From: Gammaproteobacteria bacterium
Lineage (GTDB): Bacteria > Pseudomonadota > Gammaproteobacteria > Nevskiales > Nevskiaceae
DNA: 64,000 nucleotides
Assembly (NCBI GenBank): GCA_022599775.1
Contig: JAHZLQ010000046.1
Coordinates: 1-64,000 of the forward strand
Reading direction: 5' to 3'
Below the pieces are notes generated by a model. That model had not been told where the DNA came from. It was given only the letters and a program-made list of their open reading frames with translations, and did no database searches. Shown here piece by piece: positions 39,343 to 55,454 of this stretch (its first letter is position 1; the number at the start of each line of letters is the position of its first letter). The position numbers were made by a program, and so were the translations under genes.

Positions 39343-40245
39343 ATGTCAGCAGATCCGAGAACTATTCGCGCGGACAGCGCGTACTTCGAGGAAGACTCAT
39401 CGGCTGAGATCGTCAACTCTCGCATGGGGGAAGATGCCGATCCGCGCCTGCGCGAAATCCTGAGCATCCTCACGCGGCACCTTCACGCCGCGATCAAGGA
39501 AATCGAGCCCTCGCACCATGAGTGGTTTTCGGCGATTGAGTTCCTGACGGCAACCGGCCACATGTGCAGCGACTGGCGGCAGGAGTTCATTCTCCTGTCC
39601 GACGTGCTCGGCGCCACGATGCTCGTCGACGCCATCAACCATCGGCGTCCAAGCGGGGCGACACCCAACACGATTCTTGGGCCTTTCTATGTGGAAGGGG
39701 CGCCTCGGTATTCGAACGGCGACAACATTTGTCTGGACGCCAAGGGCCAGCCCACCTTGATTCGGGGGCGCGTGCTCGGCGTTGACGGGCAGGCCATCGG
39801 CGGTGCCACACTCGACGTCTGGCAAACCAACGACGATGGCTACTACGACGTCCAGCAAAAGGGCGTTCAGCCGGACTACAACCTGCGGGGACTGTTCACC
39901 TCGGAAGCCGACGGCCGCTACTGGTTCCGAACGGTCAAGCCGCGGTTCTATCCGATTCCGTATGACGGTCCCGTCGGCAAGTTGCTGAAGGCGGTGGATC
40001 GTCATCCGAATCGCGCGGCCCATCTGCACTTCATCGTCGAAGCCGCCGGCTACGAGCAGGTCATCACTCACATTTTCACACCGGACTGTCCCTACTTGGG
40101 CGAAGACGCCGTGTTCGGCGTCAAGCGCGATCTCGTCGCGGAATTCAAGACGATAACCGATCCGGAACTCGCCGAGCGGTACGGCATGCCGTATCCGTTC
40201 CTGCTCGTGGACTGGGACTTCGTGCTCGCGCCGAAGTCTGCCTAA
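39343..40245 (+). CDS. Intradiol ring-cleavage dioxygenase, hydroxyquinol 1,2-dioxygenase type
   Basis: Non-haem Fe(III) dioxygenase of 300 residues. It would cleave hydroxyquinol (1,2,4-trihydroxybenzene) between adjacent hydroxyls to maleylacetate. The N-terminal dimerisation helices (~20-110) are followed by the catalytic beta-sandwich. Iron ligands are visible: Tyr in NDDGYYDVQ, Tyr in RFYPIPYDGP, and the His pair in HLHFIVEA. NTILGPFYVEGAPR is typical of the hydroxyquinol and catechol 1,2-dioxygenase group. Partner maleylacetate reductase at 47644 favours hydroxyquinol over catechol. First gene of a ten-gene same-strand run; GGAGGAGC lies upstream. Confidence 0.87.
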   Translation: MSADPRTIRADSAYFEEDSSAEIVNSRMGEDADPRLREILSILTRHLHAAIKEIEPSHHEWFSAIEFLTATGHMCSDWRQEFILLSDVLGATMLVDAINHRRPSGATPNTILGPFYVEGAPRYSNGDNICLDAKGQPTLIRGRVLGVDGQAIGGATLDVWQTNDDGYYDVQQKGVQPDYNLRGLFTSEADGRYWFRTVKPRFYPIPYDGPVGKLLKAVDRHPNRAAHLHFIVEAAGYEQVITHIFTPDCPYLGEDAVFGVKRDLVAEFKTITDPELAERYGMPYPFLLVDWDFVLAPKSA

Positions 40246-40284
40246 GCACGCGCTCTGCCTTCGCCTTGCCCGGAACTGACCTTC

Positions 40285-41160
40285 ATGAAAATGGGTGACA
40301 TTGAACTTTGCGCTTCATACTGGACGATTGCGGGGAACACCTTCCCCGGCGACGGCAGCGAGATCAGCTCATTCCCCTTGCGCGAACGTGCGCAGGTCGC
40401 AGGAAAGATCGGCTGGCGCGGCATGGGACTGGTCTATGCCGACCTTGAAGCGACGCTCCGCAAGGAGGGTATCGATACCGTTCGCAGCATCCTGTCCGAC
40501 AACGGCATTCGTCATCTCGAGCTTGAGTTCCTGGTCGACTGGCATCTTGACGGCGCCCGGCGATTTGCTGCCGATGCGATGTTCGGCGACATGCTCGAAG
40601 TGGCTTCGAAGCTCGAAGTTGCGAAGATCAAGCTGGGCGCGGGCTTGTTCGAAGAGGGTGAGCCCGATCTGCCGCGCATGCGCGAAGCCCTGGCGCTGAT
40701 CGGCGAGCGGGCAAACCCTCTCGGCATCGATATCGCGATCGAATTCCTGCCGTTTGCGAGCATCAATACCATCGAGCGTTGCGTGGCGCTGACGAAGGAT
40801 CTGGGCACGGACAACGTCGGTGTTCTGGTGGACACCTGGCATGTTCATCGCGGCGGCATGAAGTCCGACGACATCCGTTCCATTCCGTCGCAGTTGCTCA
40901 AGGCAGCGGAGCTCGACGATGCCGGGCCTGAGCTCATTGACTCATTGTTCAACGACTCGACACATCACCGCCACCTTTGCGGCGAAGGGGTCATCGATAT
41001 ACCCGCACAGATCCAGGCCCTGCTCGATACCGGATATCGCGGCTATTGGGGTGTCGAAGTGATCTCCGCGGCGCATCGCCAGCTGCCACTCGAGGAGGCT
41101 GCACGGCGCGCATACGACACGACGATGGCTCAGTTCCATAACGTTCGTCTTCCCGCCTAG
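40285..41160 (+). CDS. Sugar phosphate isomerase/epimerase-like TIM barrel (AP endonuclease 2 fold)
   Basis: Cytosolic metal-dependent TIM-barrel enzyme of 291 residues in the xylose-isomerase-like superfamily, which includes inosose dehydratase (IolE), inosose isomerase (IolI), and the large subunits of C-deglycosidases. Likely metal ligands are Glu in IAIEFLPF, Asp and His in VDTWHVHRGG, and the last Glu in WGVEVIS; THHRHLCGEG is the usual late loop. It follows the dioxygenase by 39 bp and precedes the inositol-dehydrogenase-like gene. I infer that it dehydrates or isomerises a keto-sugar or keto-cyclitol made by that enzyme. Confidence 0.8.
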   Translation: MKMGDIELCASYWTIAGNTFPGDGSEISSFPLRERAQVAGKIGWRGMGLVYADLEATLRKEGIDTVRSILSDNGIRHLELEFLVDWHLDGARRFAADAMFGDMLEVASKLEVAKIKLGAGLFEEGEPDLPRMREALALIGERANPLGIDIAIEFLPFASINTIERCVALTKDLGTDNVGVLVDTWHVHRGGMKSDDIRSIPSQLLKAAELDDAGPELIDSLFNDSTHHRHLCGEGVIDIPAQIQALLDTGYRGYWGVEVISAAHRQLPLEEAARRAYDTTMAQFHNVRLPA

Positions 41161-41195
41161 GTCGGCCCGTTAATTTTGTTCTCAGGATGCTAACC

Positions 41196-42191
41196 ATGCT
41201 TGGAATCGCAGTTCTCGGTGCAGGCCGTATCGGCAAGATCCACGCGGCGAATGTGGCCGCCAATCGCAATGCCAGACTGGTCGCGGTCGCCGATCCCTAC
41301 GGAGACGCCGCAAGCTCGCTGGCGAGCTTGCACGGCGCAGAAGCGGTCCTGGACCCATTCGCAGCAATCGAACGCGCCGACGTCGATGCCGTGGTGATCG
41401 GGACGCCCACCAATACGCATCTTCCGCTGCTGCTGAAGGCGGTGGAGCTGGGCAAGGCGGCGCTGTGCGAAAAGCCGATCGATCTCGATATGGAAAGGAG
41501 CCGGGCGGCCGTCGCACAGATCAAGGAGCGTGGCGGCAAGGTGATGATGGCGTTCAATCGCCGCTTCGAAAACACCTTTGCCGAAATGCGTCGCGCGATC
41601 GACGCCGGCGAAATCGGCGAGGTGCGCCAGGTTGTCATTTCGAGTCGCGATCCCGGAATGCCGCCCGCAGAGTACGTCAGGACTTCAGGTGGCATCTTCC
41701 GCGACATGACCATCCACGATCTGGACATGGCGCGCTTCCTCCTCGGCGAAGAACCCACCGAAGTCAGCGCCGTCGCGAGCCGCATCGTCGATTCCAGCTT
41801 GTGCGAGGCGCACGACGACTTCGACACGGTCATGCTGATAATGAAAACGGCCAGCGGCAAGCAGTGCCACATCAACAACTGCCGCGAGGCTGTCTACGGC
41901 TACGACCAGCGCGTCGAAGTCTTCGGATCCACCGGCATGCTGTTGCAGGAGAACCAGCGCAAGACCTCGCTTCGGCGCTGGTCGGCTACGACCACGGACG
42001 CTCGAGAGCCGCTGCTCAACTTCTTTCTTGAGCGCTACACGCAAGCCTACAAGTCCGAGGTCGATGCCTTCGTCAACGCGTTGATCAAGGACCTGCCGCT
42101 GCCAACCAGCCTCGACGACGGTCTGCAGGCCTTGCGCCTGGCTGACTGCGCGCTTGAAGCCGTGCGCACGGGTCGCACCGTCGCAGTCTGA
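41196..42191 (+). CDS. iolG: Inositol 2-dehydrogenase-like enzyme (Gfo/Idh/MocA)
   Basis: NAD-dependent dehydrogenase of 331 residues. It has the Rossmann start GIAVLGAGRIGKIHA, the dinucleotide/catalytic EKPIDLD (Lys), GFNRRF-like AFNRRF, and SGGIFRDMTIHDLDMARFLLG with the catalytic Asp and His (D-x-x-x-H). The sequence, through YGYDQRVEVFGS and ENQRK, reads very like rhizobial IdhA, which oxidises myo-inositol to scyllo-inosose. The start at 41196 is chosen because AGG lies ten bases before it; the ATG at 41187 abuts the same AGG. True substrate in this operon could be inositol, a deoxyinositol or a sugar. Confidence 0.85.
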   Translation: MLGIAVLGAGRIGKIHAANVAANRNARLVAVADPYGDAASSLASLHGAEAVLDPFAAIERADVDAVVIGTPTNTHLPLLLKAVELGKAALCEKPIDLDMERSRAAVAQIKERGGKVMMAFNRRFENTFAEMRRAIDAGEIGEVRQVVISSRDPGMPPAEYVRTSGGIFRDMTIHDLDMARFLLGEEPTEVSAVASRIVDSSLCEAHDDFDTVMLIMKTASGKQCHINNCREAVYGYDQRVEVFGSTGMLLQENQRKTSLRRWSATTTDAREPLLNFFLERYTQAYKSEVDAFVNALIKDLPLPTSLDDGLQALRLADCALEAVRTGRTVAV

Positions 42192-42218
42192 GCCCAAAAA
42201 GACAAAGGAGGAGTTTCG

Positions 42219-43304
42219 ATGAGCTACGCACTCGGTACCGAAGAACCCATCGGTATAGCCTGTCTGGGAATCACTCACCCGCACACCTCAGGACGCGTGA
42301 AGGCGTTTCAGCGTGCGCCGGGCGTCAGCTTTTTCGGCGCGTACGACGAGAGTCCGCTACTGCAGCCGTTCGTCGAAGCGCTGGGGCTGGAAGCCCGAAG
42401 CAAGGACGAGATTCTGAGCGATCCCAAGGTGCATGCGGTTCTCGTGCATCCCAAGAGCTACCTGATGGCCGATTGGGCCATCGAAGCGCTCAAGGCCGGC
42501 AAGGCCGTGCTCTGCGAGAAGCCCGCGGGCCGCGGGTCTCACGACACCCAGCGTATCGCCGAAGCCGTGGAAGAGACCGCTGGCCTGTTTCAGGTCGGAT
42601 TCTGCTGGCGCTACGCGCCCTCCGTCGACAAGCTGCAGGAGGCGCTCGCCGCCGAGCGCTTCGGCAAGGTTCTCCAGGTGCGCGCTCACGCGGGTTGCTC
42701 ACATGACGAAGCCGACACCAGCCATATGAAGCAGCCTGGCGATATCGGCGGTGCGTTCTACGTGATCGGCTGCCATACGGTCGATCGCCTGCTGCTGCAC
42801 TTCGGCATGCCGCGCTCGGTCAACGCTCGCATCACCAAGTTTGCGGGCGCGATGAGCGATACGGCGCGCGAAGACGCGGCCGGCGCCATCCTCAACTACG
42901 ACGACAAACTCATCACGCTGGACTTCATGTCCTGGGATCCCCTGCCCTGGACGGAGAGTTGGGACATCACCGTTTACGGCACCGAAGGTCTCATGTATTC
43001 GCGGCCGCTCCCGGCGTCCTACAAGGTCTACGACAGCGGTCGAAACGGTTATCCGGAAGGTTGGACGGACTGGAACGAGACCAGTTTTCCCGAGATCTGG
43101 GCCATTCGAAAGACCGTCTACTCGCCCGAACTCGCGGAGATCGGCAACCCGGTCTACTTTGATCGCGAAGCGGCGAAGTTCATCAATTCGCTGCGTACCG
43201 GTGCGCCATCCAACGTACCGGCGTCCCAGGCGCACAACATCAATCGGGTACTCGAAGCACTCTTTGCTTCGTCCAGCAGGAATGGCGAGGAAGTACTGCT
43301 GTAG
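42219..43304 (+). CDS. Second Gfo/Idh/MocA family oxidoreductase
   Basis: Rossmann-fold dehydrogenase of 361 residues distinct from its neighbour. The N-terminal GIACLGITHPHTSGRVKAF is unlike the GxGxxG loop and typical of a divergent branch. The catalytic Lys is present in CEKPAGRG. The later core GGAFYVIGCHTVDRL has the conserved His, but the usual catalytic Asp (GG-x4-D) is Val. It has a perfect AAAGGAGG upstream. With the first dehydrogenase it could oxidise a second carbon of the same ring, or reduce an intermediate; the altered catalytic residue makes the role uncertain. Confidence 0.78.
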   Translation: MSYALGTEEPIGIACLGITHPHTSGRVKAFQRAPGVSFFGAYDESPLLQPFVEALGLEARSKDEILSDPKVHAVLVHPKSYLMADWAIEALKAGKAVLCEKPAGRGSHDTQRIAEAVEETAGLFQVGFCWRYAPSVDKLQEALAAERFGKVLQVRAHAGCSHDEADTSHMKQPGDIGGAFYVIGCHTVDRLLLHFGMPRSVNARITKFAGAMSDTAREDAAGAILNYDDKLITLDFMSWDPLPWTESWDITVYGTEGLMYSRPLPASYKVYDSGRNGYPEGWTDWNETSFPEIWAIRKTVYSPELAEIGNPVYFDREAAKFINSLRTGAPSNVPASQAHNINRVLEALFASSSRNGEEVLL

Positions 43305-43348
43305 CGCGCAGGACCGTTGTTAAAAAATTAAAGAGGAGAGATTGGATC

Positions 43349-44437
43349 ATGTTCAAAAACATAAAGGCACTGACCCTCTATGGCGTGGCTCCGTTGCTTT
43401 TGCTGTCGGCTTTGTTGGCCGCTTGTGGTCAACAGCGGAGCGAAAAAGGCGTCATCGGCATCACGCTGCCAAGCAAGACCGAGGCGCGCTGGGTGTCGGA
43501 TGGCAGCAACATGGTTCGAACACTCAAAGCGATGGGCTATGACGTGGACCTGCAGTACGCGCAATACGACGTGCCGGTCCAGCTGTCTCAAGTCGAGAAC
43601 CTTGTGGCCAAGGGCGTTCGTGCACTCGTCGTTGCGCCCATTGACGGCACGACTATGGTGTCCGTGTTGCACCAGGCACACCAGAACGGCATTGCGATCA
43701 TCTCCTATGATCGCCTGATCCGCGAGACCAAGGATGTCGACTACTACGTCACGTTCGACAACCGCCAGACCGGCGTGCTGCAGGGCAAGGACATCGTCGA
43801 CAAGCTCGGGCTGGCGCAGGGCAAGGGGCCGTTCAACCTCGAGATCATCTCGGGCTCGCTGGACGACAACAATGCGCATGTGGTCTATGACGGCGTCATG
43901 TCGCAGCTCAAGCCTTACCTCGAGAGCGGCAAGCTCGTCGTGCGTAGTTCGCAGGTCTCGCTCAAGCAGACCGCAACCCCGAACTGGGACGGTGCCCTGG
44001 CGCAGGCCCGTATGGACAACCTGCTCAGTGCGTACTACAGCCGGGATCACCTCGATGCGGTGCTGGCGATGAACGATTCCATCGCGACGGGTGTGGTGTC
44101 ATCGCTGCGCAGCGTGGGCTACGGCACGCCGGACAATCCGATGCCCATCGTTACCGGCCAGGATGCCGAGGTGCCGAACATCAAGTCCATTGTCGCTGGG
44201 CATCAGACCTCTACGGTTTTCAAGGACACGCGAGCACTGGCCGAAACCGCGGCGACGATGGTGGATGCGATCCTCAGCAAGAAGCCTGTCGCCGTAAACG
44301 ATACGAGTTCCTATGACAACGGCGCTTTTGTCGTGCCGACGCAGTTGCTTGCCCCGGTTCTGGTCGATAAGTCGAACTGGAAAGAGGCGTTGGTTACGGA
44401 CGGGCACTTCTACTCCGAAGAACAGATTCTGCGCTGA
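43349..44437 (+). CDS. Sugar ABC transporter substrate-binding lipoprotein (ChvE/XylF-like)
   Basis: Periplasmic receptor of 362 residues tethered by a lipobox (LLAAC). The two-lobed periplasmic-binding domain carries GITLPSKTEARW, PIDGTTM, ISYDRLI, FDNRQTGVLQG, and the late motif TGQDAEVPNIKSIVAGHQTSTVFKDTRALAE, nearly that of ChvE/XylF. These bind aldopentoses and aldohexoses; related proteins bind inositol, so the cargo fits a sugar or cyclitol. Precedes its ATPase by 14 bases and permease in the same operon. Confidence 0.88.
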   Translation: MFKNIKALTLYGVAPLLLLSALLAACGQQRSEKGVIGITLPSKTEARWVSDGSNMVRTLKAMGYDVDLQYAQYDVPVQLSQVENLVAKGVRALVVAPIDGTTMVSVLHQAHQNGIAIISYDRLIRETKDVDYYVTFDNRQTGVLQGKDIVDKLGLAQGKGPFNLEIISGSLDDNNAHVVYDGVMSQLKPYLESGKLVVRSSQVSLKQTATPNWDGALAQARMDNLLSAYYSRDHLDAVLAMNDSIATGVVSSLRSVGYGTPDNPMPIVTGQDAEVPNIKSIVAGHQTSTVFKDTRALAETAATMVDAILSKKPVAVNDTSSYDNGAFVVPTQLLAPVLVDKSNWKEALVTDGHFYSEEQILR

Positions 44438-44451
44438 AGGAGATGAACGCG

Positions 44452-46047
44452 ATGCTCGAGAAAACCAGAACGTCCCGAGACTCTGCCCATGAGGAGACCA
44501 GTGGCCAGTCCGACCTGATTCTCTCGATGCGAGGTATCGCCAAGACCTTTGGTCCCGTCAAAGCGTTACGACGTGTGGACCTATCCGTCCGCCGTGGCGA
44601 AATTCACGCGATTTGCGGCGAAAACGGAGCGGGCAAATCGACGCTCATGAACATCCTGAGTGGCGTCTATCCATACGGCAGCTACTCGGGCGATATCGTC
44701 TTCGACGGGCAGGAGCGGCGCTTCGACAGCCTGCGCGACAGCGAGAAGGCCGGCATTTGCATCATTCATCAAGAGCTTGCCTTGGCGCCCCTGCTGTCGA
44801 TCACTGAGAACCTGTTCCTCGGCAACGAGCGATCGAAACGCGGAATCATCGACTGGGACGACGCGCATCTGGAAGCGCGGACTTTGCTGGACCGCGTGGG
44901 TCTCGGCGATGCGCCGCAGCAGGCCGTCGGCGAACTCGGCATTGGCAAGCAGCAACTGGTCGAGATCGCCAAGGCCTTGTCCAAGGACGTCCGGCTGATG
45001 ATCCTCGATGAGCCCACCGCCAGCCTCAACGAGCACGACAGCGATCGTCTGCTCGCGCTGATGCAGGAACTGAAATCGCGCGGCGTCACCTCGATCATCA
45101 TCTCGCACAAACTCAACGAGATTCGCCACATCGCCGATTCGGTCACCGTGATACGCGACGGCTCCACCGTCGACACGATGGATTGCGGGGAACAGCGTAT
45201 CGATGAATCCCGAATCGTCAGGGCCATGGTGGGGCGGGAACTCTCGGATCGATATCCGGCGCGGGAACGCCATCTAGGTGAGGTGATGTTCGAGGTTCGC
45301 AACTGGCGGGCAATCGATCGCCAGCGCCACGATCGCGAGATCGTTCGCAATGTCAGCTTCAAGGTCCGCCGTGGTGAAGTGGTCGGAATCTCCGGCCTCA
45401 TGGGGGCCGGCAGAACCGAGTTGGCGCTGAGCCTGTTCGGCCGCCTGCACAGCAAGTACGTCGGCGGTGATGTGCTGCTCCACGGCCAGCCCATCGACAC
45501 CTCGACGGTCGTCAAGGCCATCCGTAACCGCCTGGCTTACGTCACCGAGGATCGCAAGGGCGCGGGCCTCGTGGCCGAAGAGAGCATTGCGCGCAACACC
45601 GTACTGGCCAGCCTCGACCGGGTCTCGCGCCTGGGTTTTGTCGTCGACCCGTTCGCTGTGATGGATGCCGCTGAAGCGTACTGCCGCAAGCTGGGGACGC
45701 GCTGCCACGACGTCCTGCAGAAGGTCGGTACGCTGTCGGGAGGCAACCAGCAAAAGGTGGTGCTGAGCAAATGGCTCTTCACCGATCCCGAAGTGCTGAT
45801 CCTCGACGAACCCACGCGCGGAATCGACGTCGGCGCCAAATACGAGATTTACAAAATCATCAACGAGTTCGCCGAATCGGGAAAGTGCGTCGTGATGATC
45901 TCGTCCGAGATGCCCGAACTGCTGGGCACTTGTGATCGCATCTACGCCATGAACGAGGGGCGCTTCGTCGGCGAGTTCGATGCCGCGCAGGCGACACAGG
46001 AAAGAATCATGCGCTCGATCCAGAACAACCAGGCGCTTACGGCATGA
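44452..46047 (+). CDS. Sugar ABC transporter ATPase (MmsA/XylG-like, two nucleotide-binding domains)
   Basis: Cytosolic ATPase of 531 residues with two ABC domains. Domain 1: Walker A GENGAGKST, a degenerate signature ELGIGKQQ, Walker B MILDEPTASL. Domain 2: a loosened Walker A GLMGAGRTE, intact LSGGNQQK and Walker B LILDEPTRGIDVG. This asymmetric pair is normal for CUT2 sugar importers. The start at 44452 has AAGGAG nine bases before it; the ATG at 44443 abuts the AAGGAG and is unlikely. Its TGA overlaps the next ORF's upstream ATG (ATGA). Confidence 0.9.
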   Translation: MLEKTRTSRDSAHEETSGQSDLILSMRGIAKTFGPVKALRRVDLSVRRGEIHAICGENGAGKSTLMNILSGVYPYGSYSGDIVFDGQERRFDSLRDSEKAGICIIHQELALAPLLSITENLFLGNERSKRGIIDWDDAHLEARTLLDRVGLGDAPQQAVGELGIGKQQLVEIAKALSKDVRLMILDEPTASLNEHDSDRLLALMQELKSRGVTSIIISHKLNEIRHIADSVTVIRDGSTVDTMDCGEQRIDESRIVRAMVGRELSDRYPARERHLGEVMFEVRNWRAIDRQRHDREIVRNVSFKVRRGEVVGISGLMGAGRTELALSLFGRLHSKYVGGDVLLHGQPIDTSTVVKAIRNRLAYVTEDRKGAGLVAEESIARNTVLASLDRVSRLGFVVDPFAVMDAAEAYCRKLGTRCHDVLQKVGTLSGGNQQKVVLSKWLFTDPEVLILDEPTRGIDVGAKYEIYKIINEFAESGKCVVMISSEMPELLGTCDRIYAMNEGRFVGEFDAAQATQERIMRSIQNNQALTA

Positions 46048-46064
46048 ACAGGAAGGAGATTGAG

Positions 46065-47264
46065 ATGTCCACATCGTTCTACAGCCCGAATGAAGCGGCG
46101 AAGCGGGAAAGTGTCCTCGTGCTGCTGAAGCGCAACGCGGGCGACTACGGCCTGCTGGCGTCGCTGGTCATCATCACCGCGTTCTTTCAGTTCGCCACTC
46201 ACGGTGTGCTGCTGCAGCCGCTCAATATCACCAATCTGCTGTTGCAGAACAGCTACGTCGTGATCATGGCGTTGGGCATGCTGATGGTAATCGTCTGTGG
46301 CCACATCGATCTATCAGTGGGATCGGTGGTGGGCTGCATCGGTGCGCTGGCCGGCGCGCTGATGGTTACGCATCAGGTCGACGTGTTCACCTCGGTGCTG
46401 ATCTGTCTGGTGGCCGGAGCGGCCGCTGGCGCCGCCCAGGGTTATTGGGTTGCCTATTGGCGCATGCCGTCCTTCATCGTCACGCTCGCGGGCATGCTGG
46501 TGTTTCGCGGCATCACGATCGCGATATCGGACGGCGCCTCGGTCGGGCCGTTCCCGTCATCGTTTGCCGCGATCAGTTCGGGCTTCCTGCCCGATCCGTT
46601 CACCAAAACCGGCATTCATCTGTTGTCGCTGCTGATCGGCGTGGCCGTCGCGGCCCTCTTCCTGGTCGTCGAGTTCCGCGCCAGGGCCCGCTCCGTTTCG
46701 CGCAATGCCAGCGTGCAGTCGATGCCGGTGTTCGTGCTCCGCAATGGCGCCGTGACGCTGCTGCTGCTGGCCTTCTGCTACATGCTGGCCCAGTACCGCG
46801 GTATTCCCATGGTGGTACTGATCATGGGGCTGCTGATCGCCGCCTACACGTTCCTGATGAACCGGACGGTCATCGGCCGGCGCATCTACGCGGTCGGTGG
46901 GAATCTCAAGGCGGCACGGCTATCGGGTGTCAACACCTCGCGCGTCACCTTCATCGCCTTCGTCAACATGGGCATGTTGGCCGCCGTGGCCGGGCTGATT
47001 TTCGCATCCCGCCTGAACAGTGCGACGCCGAGAGCCGGAACCGGCTTCGAGCTGGACGTCATCGCGGCAGTGTTCATCGGCGGAGCGTCCGCTTCCGGCG
47101 GCGTCGGCAAGGTGCTCGGCGTGGTGATCGGCGCTTTCATCATGGGCGTGCTCAACAACGGCATGTCCATCCTCGGCCTTGGTGTCGACTATCAGCAGAT
47201 GATCAAGGGCATCGTTCTGCTCGCCGCGGTTCTGATCGACGTCTATCAGAAGAACAAGGCCTGA
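46065..47264 (+). CDS. Sugar ABC transporter permease (XylH/MmsB-like)
   Basis: Inner-membrane permease of 399 residues with about ten to twelve hydrophobic segments. GHIDLSVGSVVG and MPSFIVTLAGMLVFRGI, and the late GGNLKAARLSGVN with GVLNNGMSILGLGVDYQQMIKG, are CUT2 permease hallmarks. The start at 46065 has AAGGAG six bases upstream and is preferred over the ATG at 46044, which overlaps the ATPase stop. Cargo is set by the ChvE-like receptor. Confidence 0.88.
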   Translation: MSTSFYSPNEAAKRESVLVLLKRNAGDYGLLASLVIITAFFQFATHGVLLQPLNITNLLLQNSYVVIMALGMLMVIVCGHIDLSVGSVVGCIGALAGALMVTHQVDVFTSVLICLVAGAAAGAAQGYWVAYWRMPSFIVTLAGMLVFRGITIAISDGASVGPFPSSFAAISSGFLPDPFTKTGIHLLSLLIGVAVAALFLVVEFRARARSVSRNASVQSMPVFVLRNGAVTLLLLAFCYMLAQYRGIPMVVLIMGLLIAAYTFLMNRTVIGRRIYAVGGNLKAARLSGVNTSRVTFIAFVNMGMLAAVAGLIFASRLNSATPRAGTGFELDVIAAVFIGGASASGGVGKVLGVVIGAFIMGVLNNGMSILGLGVDYQQMIKGIVLLAAVLIDVYQKNKA

Positions 47265-47302
47265 TTGGTGTCAACACTGCCCATCATCTTCCAGGAATCC
47301 GA

Positions 47303-47614
47303 ATGATCAAGCACATCGTCATGTGGAACGTTCGCGGCGAGACGCCGGAGTGCAAGGCTGAGGCAATGCAGTTGGTGAGGTCGCGCTTCGAACAGCTGGC
47401 GGACCGGATTCCCGGGCTCGTCAGACTCGAAGTGGGGCTGGACGTCAGCCGCATCGATTACGCCTGCGACATGGTTCTCTATACGGAATTCGATAGCGAA
47501 GAATCGCTGGCCGCCTATGCCACTCACCCCGAACACCTTCGCGTGAGAGACGAGTTGATTGGAGCGCGGATCGCTCGCTATCAGGTCGATTACGAGATCG
47601 AGGTTCCGGCCTGA
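47303..47614 (+). CDS. Dabb (stress-response alpha/beta-barrel) domain protein
   Basis: Small protein of 103 residues lying 38 bp after the permease. It begins MIKHIVMWNVRGETPECK and later reads YACDMVLYTEFDSEESLAAYATHPEHLRV, the standard Dabb ferredoxin-like fold with the conserved HPEH. Members are dimers; some, such as olivetolic acid cyclase, close or isomerise polar ring precursors, while others have no known role. Found in sugar and aromatic operons. Here it could aid ring dehydration or enolisation (inference). The larger ORF around it (46445-47614) is a shadow of the permease. Confidence 0.83.
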   Translation: MIKHIVMWNVRGETPECKAEAMQLVRSRFEQLADRIPGLVRLEVGLDVSRIDYACDMVLYTEFDSEESLAAYATHPEHLRVRDELIGARIARYQVDYEIEVPA

Positions 47615-47643
47615 TCGTCTCTTGAATCCTGGAGCCCATCGTC

Positions 47644-48705
47644 ATGTACAACTTCGTCTATTCGGCCCAGCCCGCACGCGTGGTCTTTGCGAAAGGCAGC
47701 GTCCGTTCGATTGCGCGTGAGATTGAGGCGCTGGGCTGCCGCCGCGCGCTCGTACTATGCACCCCGACGCAGCGTGAGCAGGCACAGATGGTTTCCGCCT
47801 TGCTCCGGGACTTGAGCGTCGGCGTCTATGACGGCGCGGAGATGCACGTGCCCATCGAGGGCGCCCGCAAGGCCCGCGAGTATGCGCGACAAATTGACGC
47901 GGACTGCGCTATCGCGGTCGGTGGCGGTTCGACGATCGGACTCGGCAAGGCGATCGCCCTGGAATCGTCGATCCCGATTCTTGCCGTGCCGACGACCTAC
48001 GCCGGCTCCGAAATGACGCCGATCTTCGGCATTACCGAGGCCGGCCTGAAAAGGACTGGCCGCGACCCGCGCGTTCTGCCGAAGACCGTGATCTACGACC
48101 CGGACCTGTCGTCGGCGCTACCGGTTCCGATGTCGGTGGTCAGCGGGATGAACGCGATCGCGCACGCGGCGGAAGGCCTATATGCGCAGGACGGCAATCC
48201 GGTGATGTCGCTGATGGCCGAGGATGGCATTCGAGCCCTCGCCCAAGGGCTGCCTGTCCTGATGAGTCGCGCGGACGACGTGGAAGCGCGGTCACAGTGC
48301 CTGTACGGGGCCTGGTTGTGTGGAGCGGTGCTCGGGCACGTCGGCATGGCACTGCATCACAAGCTCTGCCACACCTTGGGCGGCAGCTTCAATCTTCCAC
48401 ACGCCGAAGCACACACGGTGATCCTGCCGCACGCATTGGCCTACAACGCTGGCGCCGCGCCCGAGGCGATGCGGCGCATTGCACGCGCCATCGGCGCGCC
48501 GGAAGCGGCGACGGGCCTGTATAGGCTTGCCCGGCAACTAGGGGCTCCGGTCTCGCTCAGGGAGATCGGCATGAAGGCCCAGGACCTGGACAAGGCATCC
48601 GAGATGGCGCTGGCGAATCCGTACTGGAACCCGCGCGCCATCGAAGCCAACCCTGTTCGGGCATTACTGCAGCGTGCGTGGGAGGGCGCGACGCCCGAGC
48701 TCTAG
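47644..48705 (+). CDS. Maleylacetate reductase
   Basis: Iron-containing-alcohol-dehydrogenase-fold enzyme of 353 residues that reduces maleylacetate, the product of hydroxyquinol cleavage, to 3-oxoadipate. The cofactor site is VGGGSTIGLGKAIA, with PTTYAGSEMTPIFG after it. The His-rich active-site features are MNAIAHAAEGLY, MALHHKLCHTLGG and NLPHAEAHTVILPH, the pattern of TftE/MacA/TcbF proteins. It separates from the dioxygenase by the sugar-uptake genes but lies in the same run. Confidence 0.9.
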   Translation: MYNFVYSAQPARVVFAKGSVRSIAREIEALGCRRALVLCTPTQREQAQMVSALLRDLSVGVYDGAEMHVPIEGARKAREYARQIDADCAIAVGGGSTIGLGKAIALESSIPILAVPTTYAGSEMTPIFGITEAGLKRTGRDPRVLPKTVIYDPDLSSALPVPMSVVSGMNAIAHAAEGLYAQDGNPVMSLMAEDGIRALAQGLPVLMSRADDVEARSQCLYGAWLCGAVLGHVGMALHHKLCHTLGGSFNLPHAEAHTVILPHALAYNAGAAPEAMRRIARAIGAPEAATGLYRLARQLGAPVSLREIGMKAQDLDKASEMALANPYWNPRAIEANPVRALLQRAWEGATPEL

Positions 48706-48837
48706 CTTCACCGCAAACCCCGCGATTGAGAGTTTTCTTTCCGGCCCCCTGGCCGGGATGGTGGGGTTCTGCGTGCCTGAAAAACACAAATTCAATGACG
48801 TGGTGCGAGCCACGAATCACTGCGAGGAGAAGAGGTC

Positions 48838-50130
48838 ATGGGACATATCGAATCGGTTTTGGAGTCACGGACGAGCGCATGGATGGCTGCGGCCGGCGGC
48901 ATGGCGCTGATGTTCGGGCATGCCGCGTATGCGACCGATACATCGGACGCATACGCGAGTTGGAAGGAAGACCTGAAGGCTCAGGGCGTCCAGTACGCCG
49001 CCGGCTATCGGTCAGAAGACCTGGCCGCCGTCGACGGAGGCTCGAATAATGACGTGGTTCATGCTGGCCAAGTGTTTTTGTCGTCGACATTCGATCTGCA
49101 GCAACTCGCCGGTTGGCGCGGCGCGAGCGTTACCGCAAGCCTGTCTCTGAGAGACGGCGACAATGTCAACGACGAATCGGGGGTCGGCGCATTGCTCGGG
49201 CCCCAGGAAATCTATGGCCGCGGCCACTATTTCCGGCTCTCGCAGCTGTGGCTCGATCAACAGTTGTTCGCCGATCAGCTGGCGTTGCGCATCGGCCGCT
49301 TGAATCCGGGTGAAGACTTCCAGGCCACCGAGTGCAGCTTCTTGAATCTGTCGTTCTGCGCCAACCAGGCAGGCAACTTCGTCGCCGACTACTGGTTCAA
49401 TTGGCCGATCAGCCAATGGGGTGCCACGGCGACCTTGCAACTTGGCACCGAGCACTACGTCAGACTCGGCGCCTATCAGGTCAATCAGCGCAATCTTGGA
49501 AGCGATTTCTGGGACGTGTTGAGATTTGATGGTGGGGCCGGCGTGCTGGTGCCTGCCGAGTTTGCCTGGACTCCGACAGCGGAGAACGGCCGTATGACCG
49601 AGTTCAAGATCGGCGGCTGGTACAGCAGCGCGGATCGCGCCGACGTCGAGGAAGACATCAACGGTGAATCCGCCGCGGTGAGCGGCTTGCCGTTTCGCGA
49701 ACACAACGGGACGTATGGCACCTTTGTCAGCCTGGTGAAGCAGCTCACGCGCGGCGACGCTAGCAGTGCAGAGAGTGGCTTGCGGATGGTGCTCAAGGTG
49801 TCGATGGCCGATCCCGACACCAGCACCGTCGACCGGACGATTGCCGGAACGTTGGTCTACACCGGGACGTTTCCGTCGCGTGGTCGCGATGACGTCGGAC
49901 TCGCCCTGGCGTTCAATCATCTCAACGACCGCGTCGCGGACTATCGTCAGGCATTGCCATCCGACGTGCAGTACGGCGGAAACGAACGAACCATTGAGGC
50001 CTACTACTCTCTACGCGTCGGTCGCTACCTGATGTTCCGGCCTGACATCCAGTGGATACACAACGCCGGCGGGATCAGTCAGCGCGACGATGTGCTGATC
50101 GTGGGCATGCGAACTGAACTCACGCTATAG
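48838..50130 (+). CDS. OprB-family carbohydrate-selective porin
   Basis: Outer-membrane porin of 430 residues. A weak signal peptide region with long N-terminus (to about residue 32, cleavage after AAYA) precedes beta-barrel repeats such as FRLSQLWLDQQLFADQLALRIGRLNPGEDF and AQGVQYAAGYRSE that fit OprB. It ends in MRTELTL. OprB porins let monosaccharides or cyclitols into the periplasm, matching the ABC importer. A hairpin CCGGCC-ccct-GGCCGG lies in the 132-bp leader. Confidence 0.84.
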   Translation: MGHIESVLESRTSAWMAAAGGMALMFGHAAYATDTSDAYASWKEDLKAQGVQYAAGYRSEDLAAVDGGSNNDVVHAGQVFLSSTFDLQQLAGWRGASVTASLSLRDGDNVNDESGVGALLGPQEIYGRGHYFRLSQLWLDQQLFADQLALRIGRLNPGEDFQATECSFLNLSFCANQAGNFVADYWFNWPISQWGATATLQLGTEHYVRLGAYQVNQRNLGSDFWDVLRFDGGAGVLVPAEFAWTPTAENGRMTEFKIGGWYSSADRADVEEDINGESAAVSGLPFREHNGTYGTFVSLVKQLTRGDASSAESGLRMVLKVSMADPDTSTVDRTIAGTLVYTGTFPSRGRDDVGLALAFNHLNDRVADYRQALPSDVQYGGNERTIEAYYSLRVGRYLMFRPDIQWIHNAGGISQRDDVLIVGMRTELTL

Positions 50131-50181
50131 GCCTGCACGCGGAAGGCTATGAGCGGCGGACCACCGGAATGCCGCTCAAAG

Positions 50182-51096
50182 TCACTGCGTCCATAGTGCT
50201 TCGTAACCCCCGCGTTCGAAATGATCCTTGAGGAACTCAATAAACAATCGAGTCTTGGCCGGCATGTGGCGTCTTTCCTGGTACGCGATATTGATCGTGA
50301 GCCGCGGCAGATCCCAGTCGTCGAGCACAGGCAGCAAGCGTCCCGCCTTCAGATCGTCGTGGATGATGTACTTGGGCTGCACCAGAATGCCTGCGCCGGC
50401 CAAGGCTGCGGCACGAATGATCTGTCCATCGTTTGCTTCCAGCGACGGCGCCACTTTTACGCTGGCTGTCTCGGGCCCGCGGGTGAAGTCCATCAGGTTT
50501 GGATGATTCGCATGGCTGTAGATGAGCATATCGTGGTCGACAAGTTCACTGACCTGCCGGGGAACGCCCCGCCTGCACAGATACTCGTGCGAGGCGGCCA
50601 GAACACGCCGGGTCACCGCGAGTTTTCGGACCGTGATCTGGGAGTCCGCTTCAAACTCTCTGGTTCGCACGGCAAGGTCGATACCGCTGTCAATGATGTC
50701 GTAGTAGCGGTTCGCACTGAGGATGTTGACCTTGATTCCGGGATAAAGCTTTTGGAATTCCGGCACCAGCGGTGCGATGTGCAGCATCGAGAAGGACACC
50801 GTGGCCGTTACCGAGAGCAAACCGATCGGCTTGAGCAGTGTGGCCGTCAGGGAGGCCTCTGTTTCATAAAGCTCTCCAAGAAGGCTCTTGCAGCGCGCAT
50901 AGAAATCGTGGCCCGCGGTCGTCAGAGACAGACGCCGGGTATTGCGTTCGACGAGACGAACGTTCAGACGGGTTTCCAATGCTGCGAGCAGGCGACTGGC
51001 GGCGGCATTGGATATGTTCAGCTTCTCGGCGGCTTTGCTGAGAGTACCCAGTTCGGCCGTCTGCACAAAAAGTTCCATCTCGGCGAATCGATCCAC
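50182..51096 (-). CDS. LysR-family regulator of the catabolic island
   Basis: LTTR of 304 residues. The N-terminal helix-turn-helix FVQTAELGTLSKAAEKLNISNAAASRLLAALE has the form of the CrgA/DmlR branch, followed by the effector-binding domain. It is transcribed toward the porin and away from pcaI, with 248 bp between it and pcaI, so it may control pcaIJF and perhaps the upstream operon. A dyad sits just upstream. The effector is probably a pathway intermediate, not known. Confidence 0.86.
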   Translation of the reverse strand: MDRFAEMELFVQTAELGTLSKAAEKLNISNAAASRLLAALETRLNVRLVERNTRRLSLTTAGHDFYARCKSLLGELYETEASLTATLLKPIGLLSVTATVSFSMLHIAPLVPEFQKLYPGIKVNILSANRYYDIIDSGIDLAVRTREFEADSQITVRKLAVTRRVLAASHEYLCRRGVPRQVSELVDHDMLIYSHANHPNLMDFTRGPETASVKVAPSLEANDGQIIRAAALAGAGILVQPKYIIHDDLKAGRLLPVLDDWDLPRLTINIAYQERRHMPAKTRLFIEFLKDHFERGGYEALWTQ

Positions 51097-51116
51097 CCGG
51101 AGGCTCTCCTTCTATT

Positions 51117-51141
51117 TGTTCCTTCCGCTGTGAGGAATACA
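51117..51141. promoter_or_regulatory. Candidate LysR dyad (TGTTCC...GGAATACA)
   Basis: TGTTCC at 51117-51122 and GGAATAC at 51134-51140 form an imperfect inverted repeat with a T-N-A spacing typical of LysR sites, in the 248-bp divergent region. It lies about 20 bases before the LysR start, where autoregulators often bind. Short and imperfect, so only suggestive. Confidence 0.35.
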
Positions 51142-51344
51142 GAATTCCAAGCTGAGCATTTTACGCGCAAGCCGGCTTCCTTAACATTTGACCCCTGCCC
51201 AAAGGGACACCGCATTTCGACGTCAAGCATCACAGGAATATGGAGTAGGAACACCATCGCATCAGCACTGGCAACGGTGCTCTCCCGAGCGGGACGAGAA
51301 ACTCAGCCTCGTCGACTGCCCGCAAACAACAATGAGGTGGTCTA

Positions 51345-52028
51345 GTGATAGACAAAACCCTTCCCACCGTCGAGGCCGCGGTGGCCGACATCCACGACGG
51401 TGCTTCGGTGATGATCGGCGGCTTCGGCACTGCCGGCATGCCGGACCAGCTTATCGACGCCCTGATCGTGCAAGGTGCGCGTGATCTGACCATCATCAAC
51501 AACAATGCCGGCAGCGGCGAAGCCGGCCTGGCCGCGCTGCTCAAGGCCAAGCGCGTGCGCAAGATCATCTGCTCGTTCCCGCGACAGACCGATTCGCATC
51601 ATTTCGACGCCCTCTATCGCGCCGGCGAGATCGAACTGGAACTCGTACCGCAGGGCAATCTCGCGGCGCGCATCCAAGCAGCCGGGGCCGGGCTGGGCGC
51701 CATCTTCACACCCACGGGCTACGGCACGCTGCTGGCCGAGGGCAAGGAAACGCGCGAGATCAACGGCAGGCATTACGTGCTTGAGTACCCGATCCATGCC
51801 AGCTTCGCGTTGATCAAGGCACAGCAAGGCGATCGCTGGGGCAACCTCGTCTACCGCAAGACGGCGCGCAACTTCGGGCCGATCATGGCGATGGCGGCGG
51901 CATGCACGATCGCGCAGGTGGCCAAGGTCGTGCCGCTCGGCACGCTCGATCCGGAAGGCGTTGTGACGCCCGGCATCTTCGTGCAACGCGTCGTTACCAC
52001 TGCTTCCGCGATCGCGGTGGCCGCATGA
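51345..52028 (+). CDS. pcaI: 3-oxoadipate CoA-transferase alpha subunit
   Basis: With PcaJ, transfers CoA from succinyl-CoA to 3-oxoadipate in the beta-ketoadipate pathway. The 227-residue protein has the alpha-subunit signature MIGGFGTAGMPDQLIDALI and IINNNAGSGEAGLAALL, normal for PcaI/ScoA/AtoD. The GTG at 51345 is the first in-frame start, preceded by GAGGTGG. Stop and next start share ATGA at 52025-52028, so PcaIJ are co-translated. It cannot be distinguished from acetoacetate CoA-transferase by sequence alone; context favours 3-oxoadipate. Confidence 0.9.
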   Translation: MIDKTLPTVEAAVADIHDGASVMIGGFGTAGMPDQLIDALIVQGARDLTIINNNAGSGEAGLAALLKAKRVRKIICSFPRQTDSHHFDALYRAGEIELELVPQGNLAARIQAAGAGLGAIFTPTGYGTLLAEGKETREINGRHYVLEYPIHASFALIKAQQGDRWGNLVYRKTARNFGPIMAMAAACTIAQVAKVVPLGTLDPEGVVTPGIFVQRVVTTASAIAVAA

Positions 52029-52693
52029 GTCCTGCCATGAACAAACTGAGTCGTGAACAAATGGCCGCGCGCGTGGCGCGCGACATTCCCGAAGGCGCCT
52101 ACGTGAACCTCGGCATCGGTCTGCCGACGCTGGTCGCCAACTTCCTGCCGGTCGACAAGGAAATCATCCTGCAGTCCGAGAACGGCCTGCTCGGGATGGG
52201 GCCGGCGCCAGCCAAGGGGGAGGAAGACCCCGAGCTCATCAACGCTGGCAAGCAGCCCGTGACACTACTCACGGGGGGCGCGTTTTTCCATCATGCCGAC
52301 TCGTTCGCGATGATGCGTGGCGGCCACCTGGACATCTGTGTGCTTGGCGCGTTTCAGGTTTCCGTCACCGGCGACCTCGCCAACTGGCACACCGGCGCTG
52401 CCGGTGCGATCCCGGCGGTCGGCGGCGCGATGGATCTTGCCATCGGCGCCAAGCAGGTTTTCGTGATGATGGAACTGCTGACCAAATCCGGCGAGAGCAA
52501 GCTCGTCGGCCGTTGCAGCTATCCCGTCACCGGTCTCGCCTGCGTTTCACGCGTCTATACCGACCTCGCCGTGTTCGAGCTTGGATCGCGCGGCGTGAGC
52601 GTGATCGAGATAGCCGAAGGCCTCTCCCTCGACGATCTGCGCAGCCTAACAGACCTTCCGCTGCGCGGCGCGGAAACCACGGCAACAATCTAG
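52025..52693 (+). CDS. pcaJ: 3-oxoadipate CoA-transferase beta subunit
   Basis: Beta subunit of 222 residues. The active-site Glu lies in [11 protein letters not shown], following the nucleotide-like [12 protein letters not shown] and preceding the conserved [20 protein letters not shown]. The start at 52025 overlaps the pcaI stop; an ATG at 52037 (MNKLS) is an alternative. The ORF upstream to 51902 is in another frame over pcaI and is not real coding. The product 3-oxoadipyl-CoA feeds PcaF. Confidence 0.9.
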
Positions 52694-52701
52694 GTACATC
52701 C

Positions 52702-53907
52702 ATGGCCCATGCTTACATTTGCGATGCAGTGCGCACCCCCATCGGCCGCTACAACGGCATTCTCGCCGGGGTGCGCCCCGACGATCTGGGCGCACTGCCG
52801 ATGCAAGCCCTGCTCGCACGCAATCCGCGGCTCGATGCGGCCGCGATCGAGGAAGTGTTCTACGGCTGCGCCAACCAATCGGGCGAGGACAATCGCAACG
52901 TCGCGCGCATGAGCCTGCTGCTCGCTGGCCTGCCGCACTCGGTGCCGGGCATCACGCTCAATCGTCTTTGCGCTTCGGGCCTCGACGTCGTCGGCTCTGC
53001 CGCGCGCGCGATTCGTCTTGGCGAGATGGGCCTTGCCATCGCGGGCGGCGTCGAGTCGATGACGCGCGCTCCGCTCGTGATCGGCAAGGCCGGTTCGGCC
53101 TTCAGCCGCTCGCAGACGCTGGAGGATTCGACGATGGGATGGCGGTTCATCAATCCCAAGCTGCGTGAGCTCTACGGCGTCGAGACGATGCCGCAAACCG
53201 GTGAGAACGTCGCCAATGATTACCGCATCTCGCGTGAAGATCAGGATGCATTCGCACTGCGCAGCCAACAGCGCGCAGCCATGGCGCAGGCCAGCGGATT
53301 TCATGCAGCGGAGATCATCGCGGTGTCCACGCCGGGCACGCGACGCGGCGAAACGGTGGAAGTGCGCAAGGACGAACATCCGCGTGGCGATACCACACTC
53401 GAAGCGCTCGCCAGACTCAAAGCGTTGTTCCCGCAAGGTACGGTCACAGCCGGCAACGCTTCCGGCATCAACGATGGCGCCGCGGCACTGATCATCGCCA
53501 GCGAAGAGGCCGCCAAGCGCTACGGCCTGACACCCCGTGCGCGAATCCTCGGCATGGCCTCGGCCGGCGTGGAGCCACGGGTGATGGGCATCGGCCCGGT
53601 TCCGGCAACGCGGAAGCTCATGGCACAGCTGGGACTCGAGATCACTGATTTCGACGCCATCGAACTCAACGAGGCGTTCGCGAGCCAATCGCTCGCGGTG
53701 CTGCGCGGTTTGGGCCTACCCGACGATGCGCCGCAGGTGAACGCCAACGGCGGCGCCATCGCGCTAGGCCATCCGCTCGGCATGAGTGGCGCGCGGATGG
53801 TCCTGACGCTTACGCATCAGCTCGAAAAGATCGGCGGCAAGCGTGGTTTGGCGACGTTGTGTGTCGGCGTGGGCATGGGGCTGTCACTCGCGATCGAGCG
53901 GGAATGA
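52702..53907 (+). CDS. pcaF: 3-oxoadipyl-CoA thiolase
   Basis: Thiolase of 401 residues that cleaves 3-oxoadipyl-CoA to succinyl-CoA and acetyl-CoA. The active-site Cys lies in [12 protein letters not shown], the His in [17 protein letters not shown] and the second Cys in [27 protein letters not shown] near residue 50 is characteristic of PcaF/PaaJ. The start at 52702 is eight bases after the pcaJ stop. The ORF beginning at 52513 runs over pcaJ in another frame and is not used. Nothing is seen in 53908-54130 except intergenic sequence. Confidence 0.93.
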
Positions 53908-54251
53908 GCAGCTGGGAAGGACGATCGGCGAGCTCTTGCAATTTTTGATGGGTCGGTCGCCGCGCTTATGAGCGAGTGGCGCTCGTACCACCTCTCCGAG
54001 TGCGCACGTGCCCTGCGGCGTCGCAGCTTCAGTTCAGCAGCTCACGCCCCGCCAGCGCGGGTTTTTCGTAGACAGCCGCCAGAACTACCTTCACAGCTTT
54101 CGCTGGGCTGCGCTCTGATGCGAAGCTAACAGACAGGCCGTCCATCGACTCCGCCGGAGCAGTTGCTGCGGGCCCTGCTGTTCCGTTGTTTGTCGGTCTT
54201 CAGATTGACGATCCGATCTGGGATCGCACGGTCTTCAGCACCAATCGGAAT

Positions 54252-55454
54252 GGTAACCCCCCAATTTTAGCGATCGTCAAAAATGGAGCTATGCGGCGAG
54301 TGCCAACTTCTGCATGGGCGTGATGCCGCAGAGCGCCATGTTCGGGCGCTCGTGGTTGTAAGTCCATAGCCAGCGAGTGGCCATGTCCTGCACCTGTTCG
54401 ATCGTGTCGAACAGGGTCCGGGCCGAGCCACGCATAGCGCACGGTGCGGTTGTAACGCTCGATGTAGGCGTTCTGCTGCGGCCTGCCGGGCTGGATGTAT
54501 TCCAAACTAATGCTCCGATTCTGTGCCCAAGCCTGTAGTGCGCCGCTGATGTATTCGGGGCCGTTATCACAGCGGATCGCCTTGGGCGCGCCGCGCCATT
54601 CGATGATCTGCTCCAGCGCCCGGATCACTTGGGCTGAAGGCAGCGGCAGATCGATCTCGATGGCCAGACCTTCGCGGTTGAAATCACCAAGGACGTTGAA
54701 CAACCGGAAGCTGCGGCCGTCACCGAGCTGGTCGTGCATGAAAGCCATTGACCAAACTTGGTTGATCGTCGCGGGTACGGCCAGCGGTTCTGGCTTCTCC
54801 CGGACCATTCGCTTCCTCGGTTTGATCCGCAGGGTCAATTCCAGCTCCCGGTAGATTCGGTACACCCGCTTGTGGTTCCAGCCGAACGTCTTCACGTGGC
54901 GGAGGTGCAGAAAGCACAGGCCAAAACCCCAATCGCGATAGGTCGTGGTCAACCGCACCAGCCAGTCAGCGATCCGGGCGTTCTCCTCGCGGGCCTTGGC
55001 CTGGTAGCGATAGCAGGTCTGGCTGACCTCGAAGGTCAGGCAGGCGTGCCAGATACTCGTTCGCCCATCTTCAACCGCCCAGCGGGCCATCCCCCGACGT
55101 TGAGATCGCCTCGCCATTTTTTTTGCCATGGCTTCCTTCAATAGATCGAGATCGGCGCTGAGCTGAGACTCGGCGTACATCTCCTTCAGGCGCCGGTTCT
55201 CGTCCTTAAGCTCTTTGAGCTGGGACATCAGAGACGGGGCCATGCCGCCGAACCGGCTGCGCCATTTGTAGAACGTCGCTGAACTGATGCCGTGCTCTCG
55301 GCACAGCTCCGGGACGGGTGTGCCGACTTCGGCTTGCTTGAGCACGGCAATGATCTGGCTGTCACTGAATCGGGATGCCTTCACGGAAATCTCCTCGGGA
55401 AAGGTTACGAGAAAATTCCACTTCTGACGTCAACTAATCTGTGAGGGGATTACC
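54252..55454 (-). mobile_element. IS3-family insertion sequence (about 1.2 kb) with 4-bp duplication
   Basis: Bounded by short inverted ends GGTAACCCCC (54252) and, reading inward from the right, GGTAATCCCC (55454). The 4-bp GAAT is repeated on both sides (54248-54251 and 55455-55458), a fit for IS3-family target duplication. It sits inside an older IS5-type transposase gene. Transposase lies on the minus strand. Confidence 0.8.
54289..55384 (-). pseudogene. IS3-family transposase OrfAB, inactivated
   Basis: Starts MKASRFSDSQIIAVLKQAEV (OrfA helix-turn-helix), then the OrfB core. At the OrfA/OrfB join (AAAAAAAA near 55115-55122) the frames run straight through with no slip needed. In the DDE core the first Asp position is Ala (VWSMAFMHD, where relatives have SMDFMHD); the second Asp (CDNGPEY) and Glu (NAYIERYN) are present. 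One extra base near 54416 shifts the end: the native tail TLFDTIEQVQDMATRWLW and NMALCGITPMQKLALAA is in another frame ending at 54289. Two lesions make it inactive. Confidence 0.82.

Follow-up and report, generated by a model that had tools for sequence, protein, structure and literature searches.

The 64,000-nucleotide stretch analyzed here (the window; contig JAHZLQ010000046.1 of assembly GCA_022599775.1) is part of a 4.27 Mb draft genome from a gammaproteobacterium of the family Nevskiaceae. It carries a catabolic island in which genes of cyclitol or sugar type lie beside genes for hydroxyquinol ring cleavage. Ten plus-strand genes occupy positions 39343-50130 and are followed by pcaIJF at 51345-53907. 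Spacers between the ten, measured from stop to next start, are 39, 26, 27, 44, 5, -4, 38, 29, and 132 bases. An initial annotation of this DNA had listed ten same-strand genes plus pcaIJF, and each was recovered at its position and in the family proposed.

The run opens with HQD (39343-40245), an intradiol 1,2-dioxygenase of predicted hydroxyquinol type that contains the Pfam domains Dioxygenase_N and _C. Next are TIM (40285-41160), an AP_endonuc_2 TIM-barrel protein that we propose as a keto-cyclitol dehydratase, IDH1 (41187-42191), an IolG-type inositol/cyclitol dehydrogenase, and GFO2 (42219-43304), a second Gfo/Idh/MocA protein with unusual motifs. The importer consists of a ChvE-like periplasmic sugar-binding protein (43349-44437), a GguA/MmsA-like ATP-binding cassette ATPase (44443-46047), and a GguB/MmsB-like permease (46044-47264). 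When scored against multiple-monosaccharide models, the binding protein (NF040907; 459.8 bits, cut-off 460) and the ATPase (NF040905; 801.8 bits, cut-off 810) fell slightly under cut-off and the permease exceeded it (NF040906; 540.8 bits, cut-off 450). The last three genes encode a Dabb protein (47303-47614; PF07876, 73.6 bits, cut-off 25), the maleylacetate reductase MAR (47644-48705), and the carbohydrate-selective porin OprB (48838-50130; PF04966, 287 bits). A LysR-type regulator (50182-51096; PF03466 and PF00126) is encoded on the minus strand between oprB and pcaI.

For HQD, the best matches among solved structures were a 6-chlorohydroxyquinol dioxygenase (319 bits), PnpC (270 bits), and a hydroxyquinol dioxygenase (232 bits), compared with 121 bits for the best solved catechol dioxygenase chain. 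HQD also scored under every catechol equivalog cut-off. On the basis of these cut-offs and bit scores, a catechol or chlorocatechol dioxygenase was rejected, and by sequence comparison HQD is of the hydroxyquinol rather than the catechol type. Across 42 sequences, conservation of Tyr168, Tyr203, His227, and His229 was 93% or higher. The genome holds one PF00775 gene. MAR matched the Fe-ADH Pfam family and, at 401 and 396 bits (E-values 4e-119 and 2e-117), maleylacetate reductases of solved structure. The remaining plus-strand genes passed their models as pcaI (3-oxoacid CoA-transferase subunit A; 51345-52028; TIGR02429, 384.6 bits, cut-off 128.5), pcaJ (subunit B; 52025-52693, with a start at 52025 or 52037; TIGR02428, 292.8 bits, cut-off 243.6), and pcaF (3-oxoadipyl-CoA thiolase; 52702-53907; TIGR02430, 668.7 bits, cut-off 597). 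Enzymes of the HQD type produce maleylacetate, those of the MAR type reduce it to 3-oxoadipate, and PcaIJ with PcaF yield succinyl-CoA and acetyl-CoA. The families of all five proteins thus agree with the lower half proposed in the initial annotation, from hydroxyquinol to succinyl-CoA and acetyl-CoA. No monooxygenase that could supply hydroxyquinol scored over its Pfam cut-off among the island genes.

Linkage of these genes extends well beyond the window. One genome per species (84,980 species) was scanned using an alignment of 29 TIM proteins, which returned 100 relatives, and the loci around the best 80 were compared. TIM was at least 50% identical to the window protein in 28 of the 80. Homologues of HQD, IDH1, and GFO2 were each present in 28 of 28, together with Dabb (27), a permease homologue (26), LysR (25), and MAR (23); the 28 loci are not independent, as they include 15 from Pseudomonas, some near copies, and one 5.4 kb contig (L003). 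The dioxygenase of five loci (L018, L020, L024, L026, and L027) is a 44-46% homologue of HQD. Among 21 loci with TIM at 40-50%, HQD was found in 13 and GFO2 in 6, and among 31 loci with TIM under 40%, HQD was found in 4 and GFO2 in none. Neighborhoods combining an intradiol dioxygenase, an IolG-like protein, a Gfo/Idh protein, a CUT2-type importer, and a maleylacetate reductase were conserved in Rhodobacterales, Hyphomicrobiales, Azospirillum, and Pseudomonas, such that homologous gene arrangements do occur elsewhere. A short contig from a Sphingomonadales metagenome-assembled genome (MAG) has the same beginning as the window island.

At least seven gene orders were observed among the modules. 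The window and Azospirillum share the order HQD-TIM-IDH1-GFO2-importer-Dabb-MAR. Many Pseudomonas loci have this order without MAR, which is divergent and lies beside a second dioxygenase. Two further orders begin with another importer, followed by HQD-TIM-IDH1-GFO2-Dabb-MAR (L010-L013) or by TIM-IDH1-GFO2-Dabb-MAR-HQD and sometimes pca genes (L004-L008 and Aureimonas). Relative to the window, the binding protein and permease of these importers are 28-32% identical, and the ATPase, where matched, 23-25%. L018 and L020 contain split and inverted forms of the module. Pseudomonas loci contain an extra gene of 480-530 residues, of which the two scanned copies each encode a Sugar_tr transporter. 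In the Aureimonas locus, a gene some 3.5 kb beyond pcaF encodes a DUF5060 protein that may be glycosidase-like.

Several more distant relatives of TIM have different company. L031, L037, and L039 (Burkholderia and Pseudomonas) combine a 41-44% TIM with an FMN reductase, a luciferase-like monooxygenase or an amidohydrolase, and with HQD and Dabb; these clusters might represent a related pathway that acts on a different substrate. On a Sphingobium plasmid (L087), a 38% TIM relative lies among genes named as choline dehydrogenase and FAD-binding protein, with no annotated intradiol dioxygenase.

GFO2 served as an independent seed. Within its class (369 genomes, 1e-60) the sole match was the own genome, and linkage was therefore judged in plasmid records. 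A search of 72,556 such records yielded 13, of which 9 are from Rhizobium and two (L132 and L133) represent the same region in two strains, so that they are not independent. In all 13, the genes for HQD, MAR, Dabb, and TIM were no more than about 18 kb away from GFO2. IDH1 was present in 2 and missing in 11, and the annotated ones among those 11 carry SDR genes. A representative Rhizobium/Agrobacterium order is importer-GFO2-Dabb-YciI-MAR-HQD-SDR-SDR-TIM, and in Agrobacterium a tautomerase gene follows TIM. This variant module was seen on plasmids of rhizobia whose sources were clover, pea, and vetch. The gene content of the plasmid records marks GFO2, TIM, and Dabb as members of the core, with an entry dehydrogenase that seems exchangeable.

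The coupling of the two halves looks selected, since a constant set of genes recurs in differing orders and with different importers and entry dehydrogenases. Two unrelated catabolic pathways could in principle have met by chance on one mobile island; a transposase open reading frame (ORF) adjoins the island, and catabolic islands do mix modules. The genes nevertheless stay together in 28 of 28 TIM-seeded and 13 of 13 GFO2-seeded loci despite shuffled orders and different importers. A chance neighborhood was rejected on these counts, and we regard two unrelated pathways as very improbable. The conservation across bacterial orders supports the earlier inference that the island would encode a single pathway.

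We then considered what the upper half of such a pathway might act on. IDH1 exceeded the curated IolG cut-off (TIGR04380; 391 vs 355 bits), and its nearest solved structures are the inositol dehydrogenases 4hkt and 3euw, which bears out its earlier description as IdhA-like. The own genome has one IolG-type gene over cut-off. It has no match to iolB, which matched 3 of 14 control genomes (all over cut-off), and none to iolE (TIGR04379), which matched 7 of 14 controls (2 over cut-off). For iolD there were four matches, none over cut-off (best 187 vs 715 bits), and 3 of 14 controls were over cut-off. The canonical inositol pathway was rejected for this host because iolB, iolE, and an over-cut-off iolD are lacking, which for the same reason leaves the IDH1 product without its classical exit. 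Phylogenetic analysis placed 32 module IDH1 sequences on one branch (support 99/97), apart from 13 other IolG-type proteins taken from 17 module genomes, some of which drew a long-branch warning. The module sequences differ from the five nearest of these 13 at 25 separating positions. In addition, iolB was over cut-off in 16 of 26 module genomes from the 28-locus set. Together, the separate branch and the presence of iolB in those genomes point to an IDH1 substrate other than myo-inositol. Where the initial annotation had suggested inositol or sugar catabolism, a cyclitol-type upper half is retained and the proposed substrate narrows to a cyclitol, probably a deoxyinositol.

The TIM-barrel protein is the candidate for the next step. 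The best fold matches of its predicted model (mean predicted local distance difference test score, pLDDT, 85.9) were IolI, Lmo2234, and 5hmq, the last being a TIM-barrel/4-hydroxyphenylpyruvate-dioxygenase fusion that we take to be QuiC. Residues E153, D183, E209, and E258 align with metal-site columns of IolI and 5hmq, whose roles are presumably metal binding. TIM has the AP_endonuc_2 barrel, the four metal-site columns, and the DxxH motif of a QuiC-like dehydratase fold. It also shares with 5hmq an S-x-H-x-R stretch absent from IolI. QuiC itself yields an aromatic product through dehydration of dehydroshikimate to protocatechuate. Two identities were rejected: TIM is not QuiC, as it matched that equivalog only weakly (43.8 bits, cut-off 1200), and it is not a true IolE, as the genome lacks a TIGR04379 match. 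Mean column identity was 70% for TIM (29 rows) and 85% for GFO2 orthologues, the latter in a different sample (21 rows).

GFO2 matched the Gfo/Idh domain and fold clearly by Pfam and Foldseek. A Lys-Asp-His triad is catalytic in IolG-type Gfo/Idh enzymes and was seen in IDH1. In GFO2, Lys101 and His186 are kept, but Val182 replaces the Asp in 35 of 35 sequences. Likewise, GITHPHT replaces the GxGxxG motif and was invariant in 21 of 21. Owing to these two substitutions, GFO2 may not be an ordinary dehydrogenase. Its structural model (mean pLDDT 73.9) is too weak for claims about the active site, and the Foldseek result confirms only the Gfo/Idh fold. With no hydroxylase over cut-off in the island and no classical exit for the IDH1 product, the step joining the two halves would fall among TIM, GFO2, and Dabb.

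From these observations, we consider it reasonably probable that the genes of the island act in a single aerobic route, which would convert a cyclitol (probably a deoxyinositol, for example quercitol) to a ketone, then to hydroxyquinol, and finally to 3-oxoadipate. OprB and the ChvE/GguAB importer, assigned by family, would take up the cyclitol, which we infer to be the ligand. IDH1 would then oxidize the ring carbon adjoining the CH2. TIM, with GFO2 and Dabb, would remove two beta-hydroxyls, and tautomerization would give benzene-1,2,4-triol. HQD would open this ring to maleylacetate, MAR would form 3-oxoadipate, and PcaIJ and PcaF would release succinyl-CoA and acetyl-CoA. The aromatizing dehydration is the new step in this scheme, and is suggested by the kinship of the TIM fold to those of IolI and QuiC, by the atom balance, and by gene linkage. 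Quercitol (C6H12O5) oxidized next to its CH2 and relieved of two beta-hydroxyls would keep oxygen at positions 1, 2, and 4, which corresponds to hydroxyquinol (C6H6O3), and the route would need no redox step beyond the first oxidation. With slightly less assurance, we also lean toward a general form of this proposal, whereby neutral cyclitols are aromatized for food. Here, TIM would dehydrate a keto-deoxyinositol or keto-inositol to hydroxyquinol with GFO2 and Dabb as dehydratase/tautomerase partners, entry dehydrogenases would be interchangeable, and the module would spread on plasmids and islands. A dehydrogenase, isomerase-like enzymes that beta-eliminate and hydrate, and a Gfo/Idh reductase form one path in levoglucosan use (PMC7676230).

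An inositol could also be the starting compound. Starting from an inosose, two such eliminations would leave four hydroxyls, so that hydroxyquinol would require one extra reduction and three dehydrations. IDH1 would oxidize an inositol isomer, TIM would remove water, and GFO2 would use NADH to reduce the resulting diketone; two further waters would then be lost to give hydroxyquinol, for a redox-neutral net conversion of C6H12O6 to C6H6O3 with loss of three waters. This scheme accommodates the score of IDH1 against the IolG model, the gaps among the iol genes of the own genome, and, should GFO2 be a reductase, its constant presence. Gfo/Idh-type enzymes also act at both ends of the levoglucosan pathway (oxidation, elimination, hydration, reduction; PMC7676230). 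We nonetheless find the scheme unlikely, given that module genomes often have iolB too (16 of 26) and that GFO2 has neither the usual glycine motif nor the catalytic Asp. Moreover, chemical double elimination of inososes or their protected forms gave 1,2,3,5- and 1,2,3,4-tetrahydroxybenzene, not hydroxyquinol, according to a review (PMC11467972).

Alternatively, the substrate could be an aryl-glycoside of hydroxyquinol or a related compound, from which the Gfo/Idh proteins and TIM would strip the sugar by 3-oxidation and beta-elimination, leaving the aglycone alone to enter HQD and MAR. A Gfo/Idh-type dehydrogenase paired with isomerase-like lyases has a precedent in levoglucosan use (PMC7676230), and IDH1 is also weakly akin to DgpA-type enzymes. 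Yet IDH1 is IolG-type and reached only 70.8 bits against the levoglucosan dehydrogenase model (cut-off 650; GFO2, 46.0 bits), and the window module has a single TIM barrel. The window importer is of the monosaccharide type, and neither a glycosidase nor a sugar kinase is annotated inside the four annotated modules inspected. For these reasons, deglycosylation appears improbable. The small beta subunit CGDB (PF19906) of C-glycoside deglycosidases (DgpBC/CarBC) had no match in the own genome and likewise none in control genomes.

Several observations weigh against the cyclitol-to-hydroxyquinol proposal. GFO2 is present in all 28 loci, though the quercitol route needs only one oxidation; inositol would be the better match for a second oxidoreductase, unless GFO2 has no redox activity. 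The GFO2 match was split into two or three pieces in 5 of 13 plasmid records, where the gene may be broken. In fold comparisons of the predicted TIM model, IolI (isomerase), Lmo2234, and QuiC (dehydratase) all score within 1.3 Z units. Genes for the final steps were rarely nearby, with pcaI and pcaJ near 2 of the 28 loci and pcaF near 1. Ten Pseudomonas loci have a second intradiol dioxygenase, 29-36% identical to HQD and mostly next to maleylacetate reductase (for example L014 2365-4731 and L017 4363-6360, with one copy confirmed by Pfam), which makes it uncertain which enzyme cleaves hydroxyquinol there. Clusters with TIM at about 40-44% (Burkholderia, some Pseudomonas, Agrobacterium) contain FMN_red, Bac_luciferase, LLM, and amidohydrolase proteins, and their hydroxyquinol might come from monooxygenation. 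Dabb itself scored 21.9 bits against PF03992 (the ABM monooxygenase family), under the cut-off of 23.1. Finally, a sigma-70 promoter search of the region gave no matches, compared with 3.6 in shuffles.

The island appears to be foreign to its host lineage. Its G+C content is 61.6%, against 64.6% and 64.8% in the left and right flanks. Of 58 genomes in the family, one had TIM (1e-20), and of 369 in the class, one had GFO2; each time this was the own genome. In the IDH1 tree, the window copy falls with those of Azospirillum and the Sphingomonadales MAG rather than with Pseudomonas. An IS3-family transposase ORF is located past pcaF (54200-55384, minus strand). Collectively, these features suggest that the island was acquired by transfer. 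The family match of the transposase ORF stops at residue 322 of 394, and its 3' part is probably altered. Directly upstream of the island, a Fic/DOC-domain protein (37262-38695) adjoins RF3. The best named relatives of this RF3 protein come from Nevskiales, Fontimonas, Nevskia, and Solimonas, which indicates a Nevskiaceae-like host. In Azospirillum oryzae, PcaI (L084 1-871, compared with window 51345-52693; about 10 kb from the module) is 87% identical to the window PcaI, and the nine L084 module proteins are 64-78% identical to their window counterparts, all below that value; a recent shared source of the two PcaI proteins is possible.

Quercitols occur in oaks, and the proposed pathway, if true, would give carrier bacteria a catabolic route for such cyclitols and join sugar-alcohol with aromatic catabolism. 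It would also give a function to a TIM-barrel family whose only annotation is "sugar phosphate isomerase/epimerase", as well as to an unusual subfamily of Gfo/Idh proteins and a family of Dabb proteins. For bio-based aromatics, an enzymatic route leading from a sugar-like ring to 1,2,4-benzenetriol would be useful. Since a variant of the module is found on rhizobial plasmids, it may matter for life close to legumes. Among the papers listed from the open-access PubMed Central literature (at most 20 of those found per search, with subscription papers and patents outside this scope), none was on a cyclitol-to-hydroxyquinol pathway, and the passages of PMC9007349 and PMC6170601 contain nothing on hydroxyquinol.

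The island resembles parts of four known systems. The levoglucosan pathway (LgdA-B1-B2-C; PMC7676230) is similar in that a dehydrogenase oxidizes, a protein labeled "sugar phosphate isomerase/epimerase" beta-eliminates, and a Gfo/Idh-type enzyme reduces, but the island has one TIM barrel, not two, its dehydrogenases are not of the levoglucosan type, and its product would be aromatic, not glucose. Quinate/shikimate catabolism uses QuiC/AsbF and the beta-ketoadipate pathway. Here, TIM is far under the QuiC cut-off, no carboxylate is expected, and the hydroxyquinol/maleylacetate branch would take the place of protocatechuate. Degraders of resorcinol, nitrophenol, and chlorophenol share with the island a hydroxyquinol-type dioxygenase and a maleylacetate reductase, whereas the island has no monooxygenase at the Pfam level and its upstream genes are of cyclitol/sugar type. 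Bacillus-type inositol catabolism (iolG-E-D-B-C) shares the IolG-type first enzyme, which is over cut-off, but the own genome is without iolB, iolE, and an over-cut-off iolD, and the island ends in aromatic ring cleavage.

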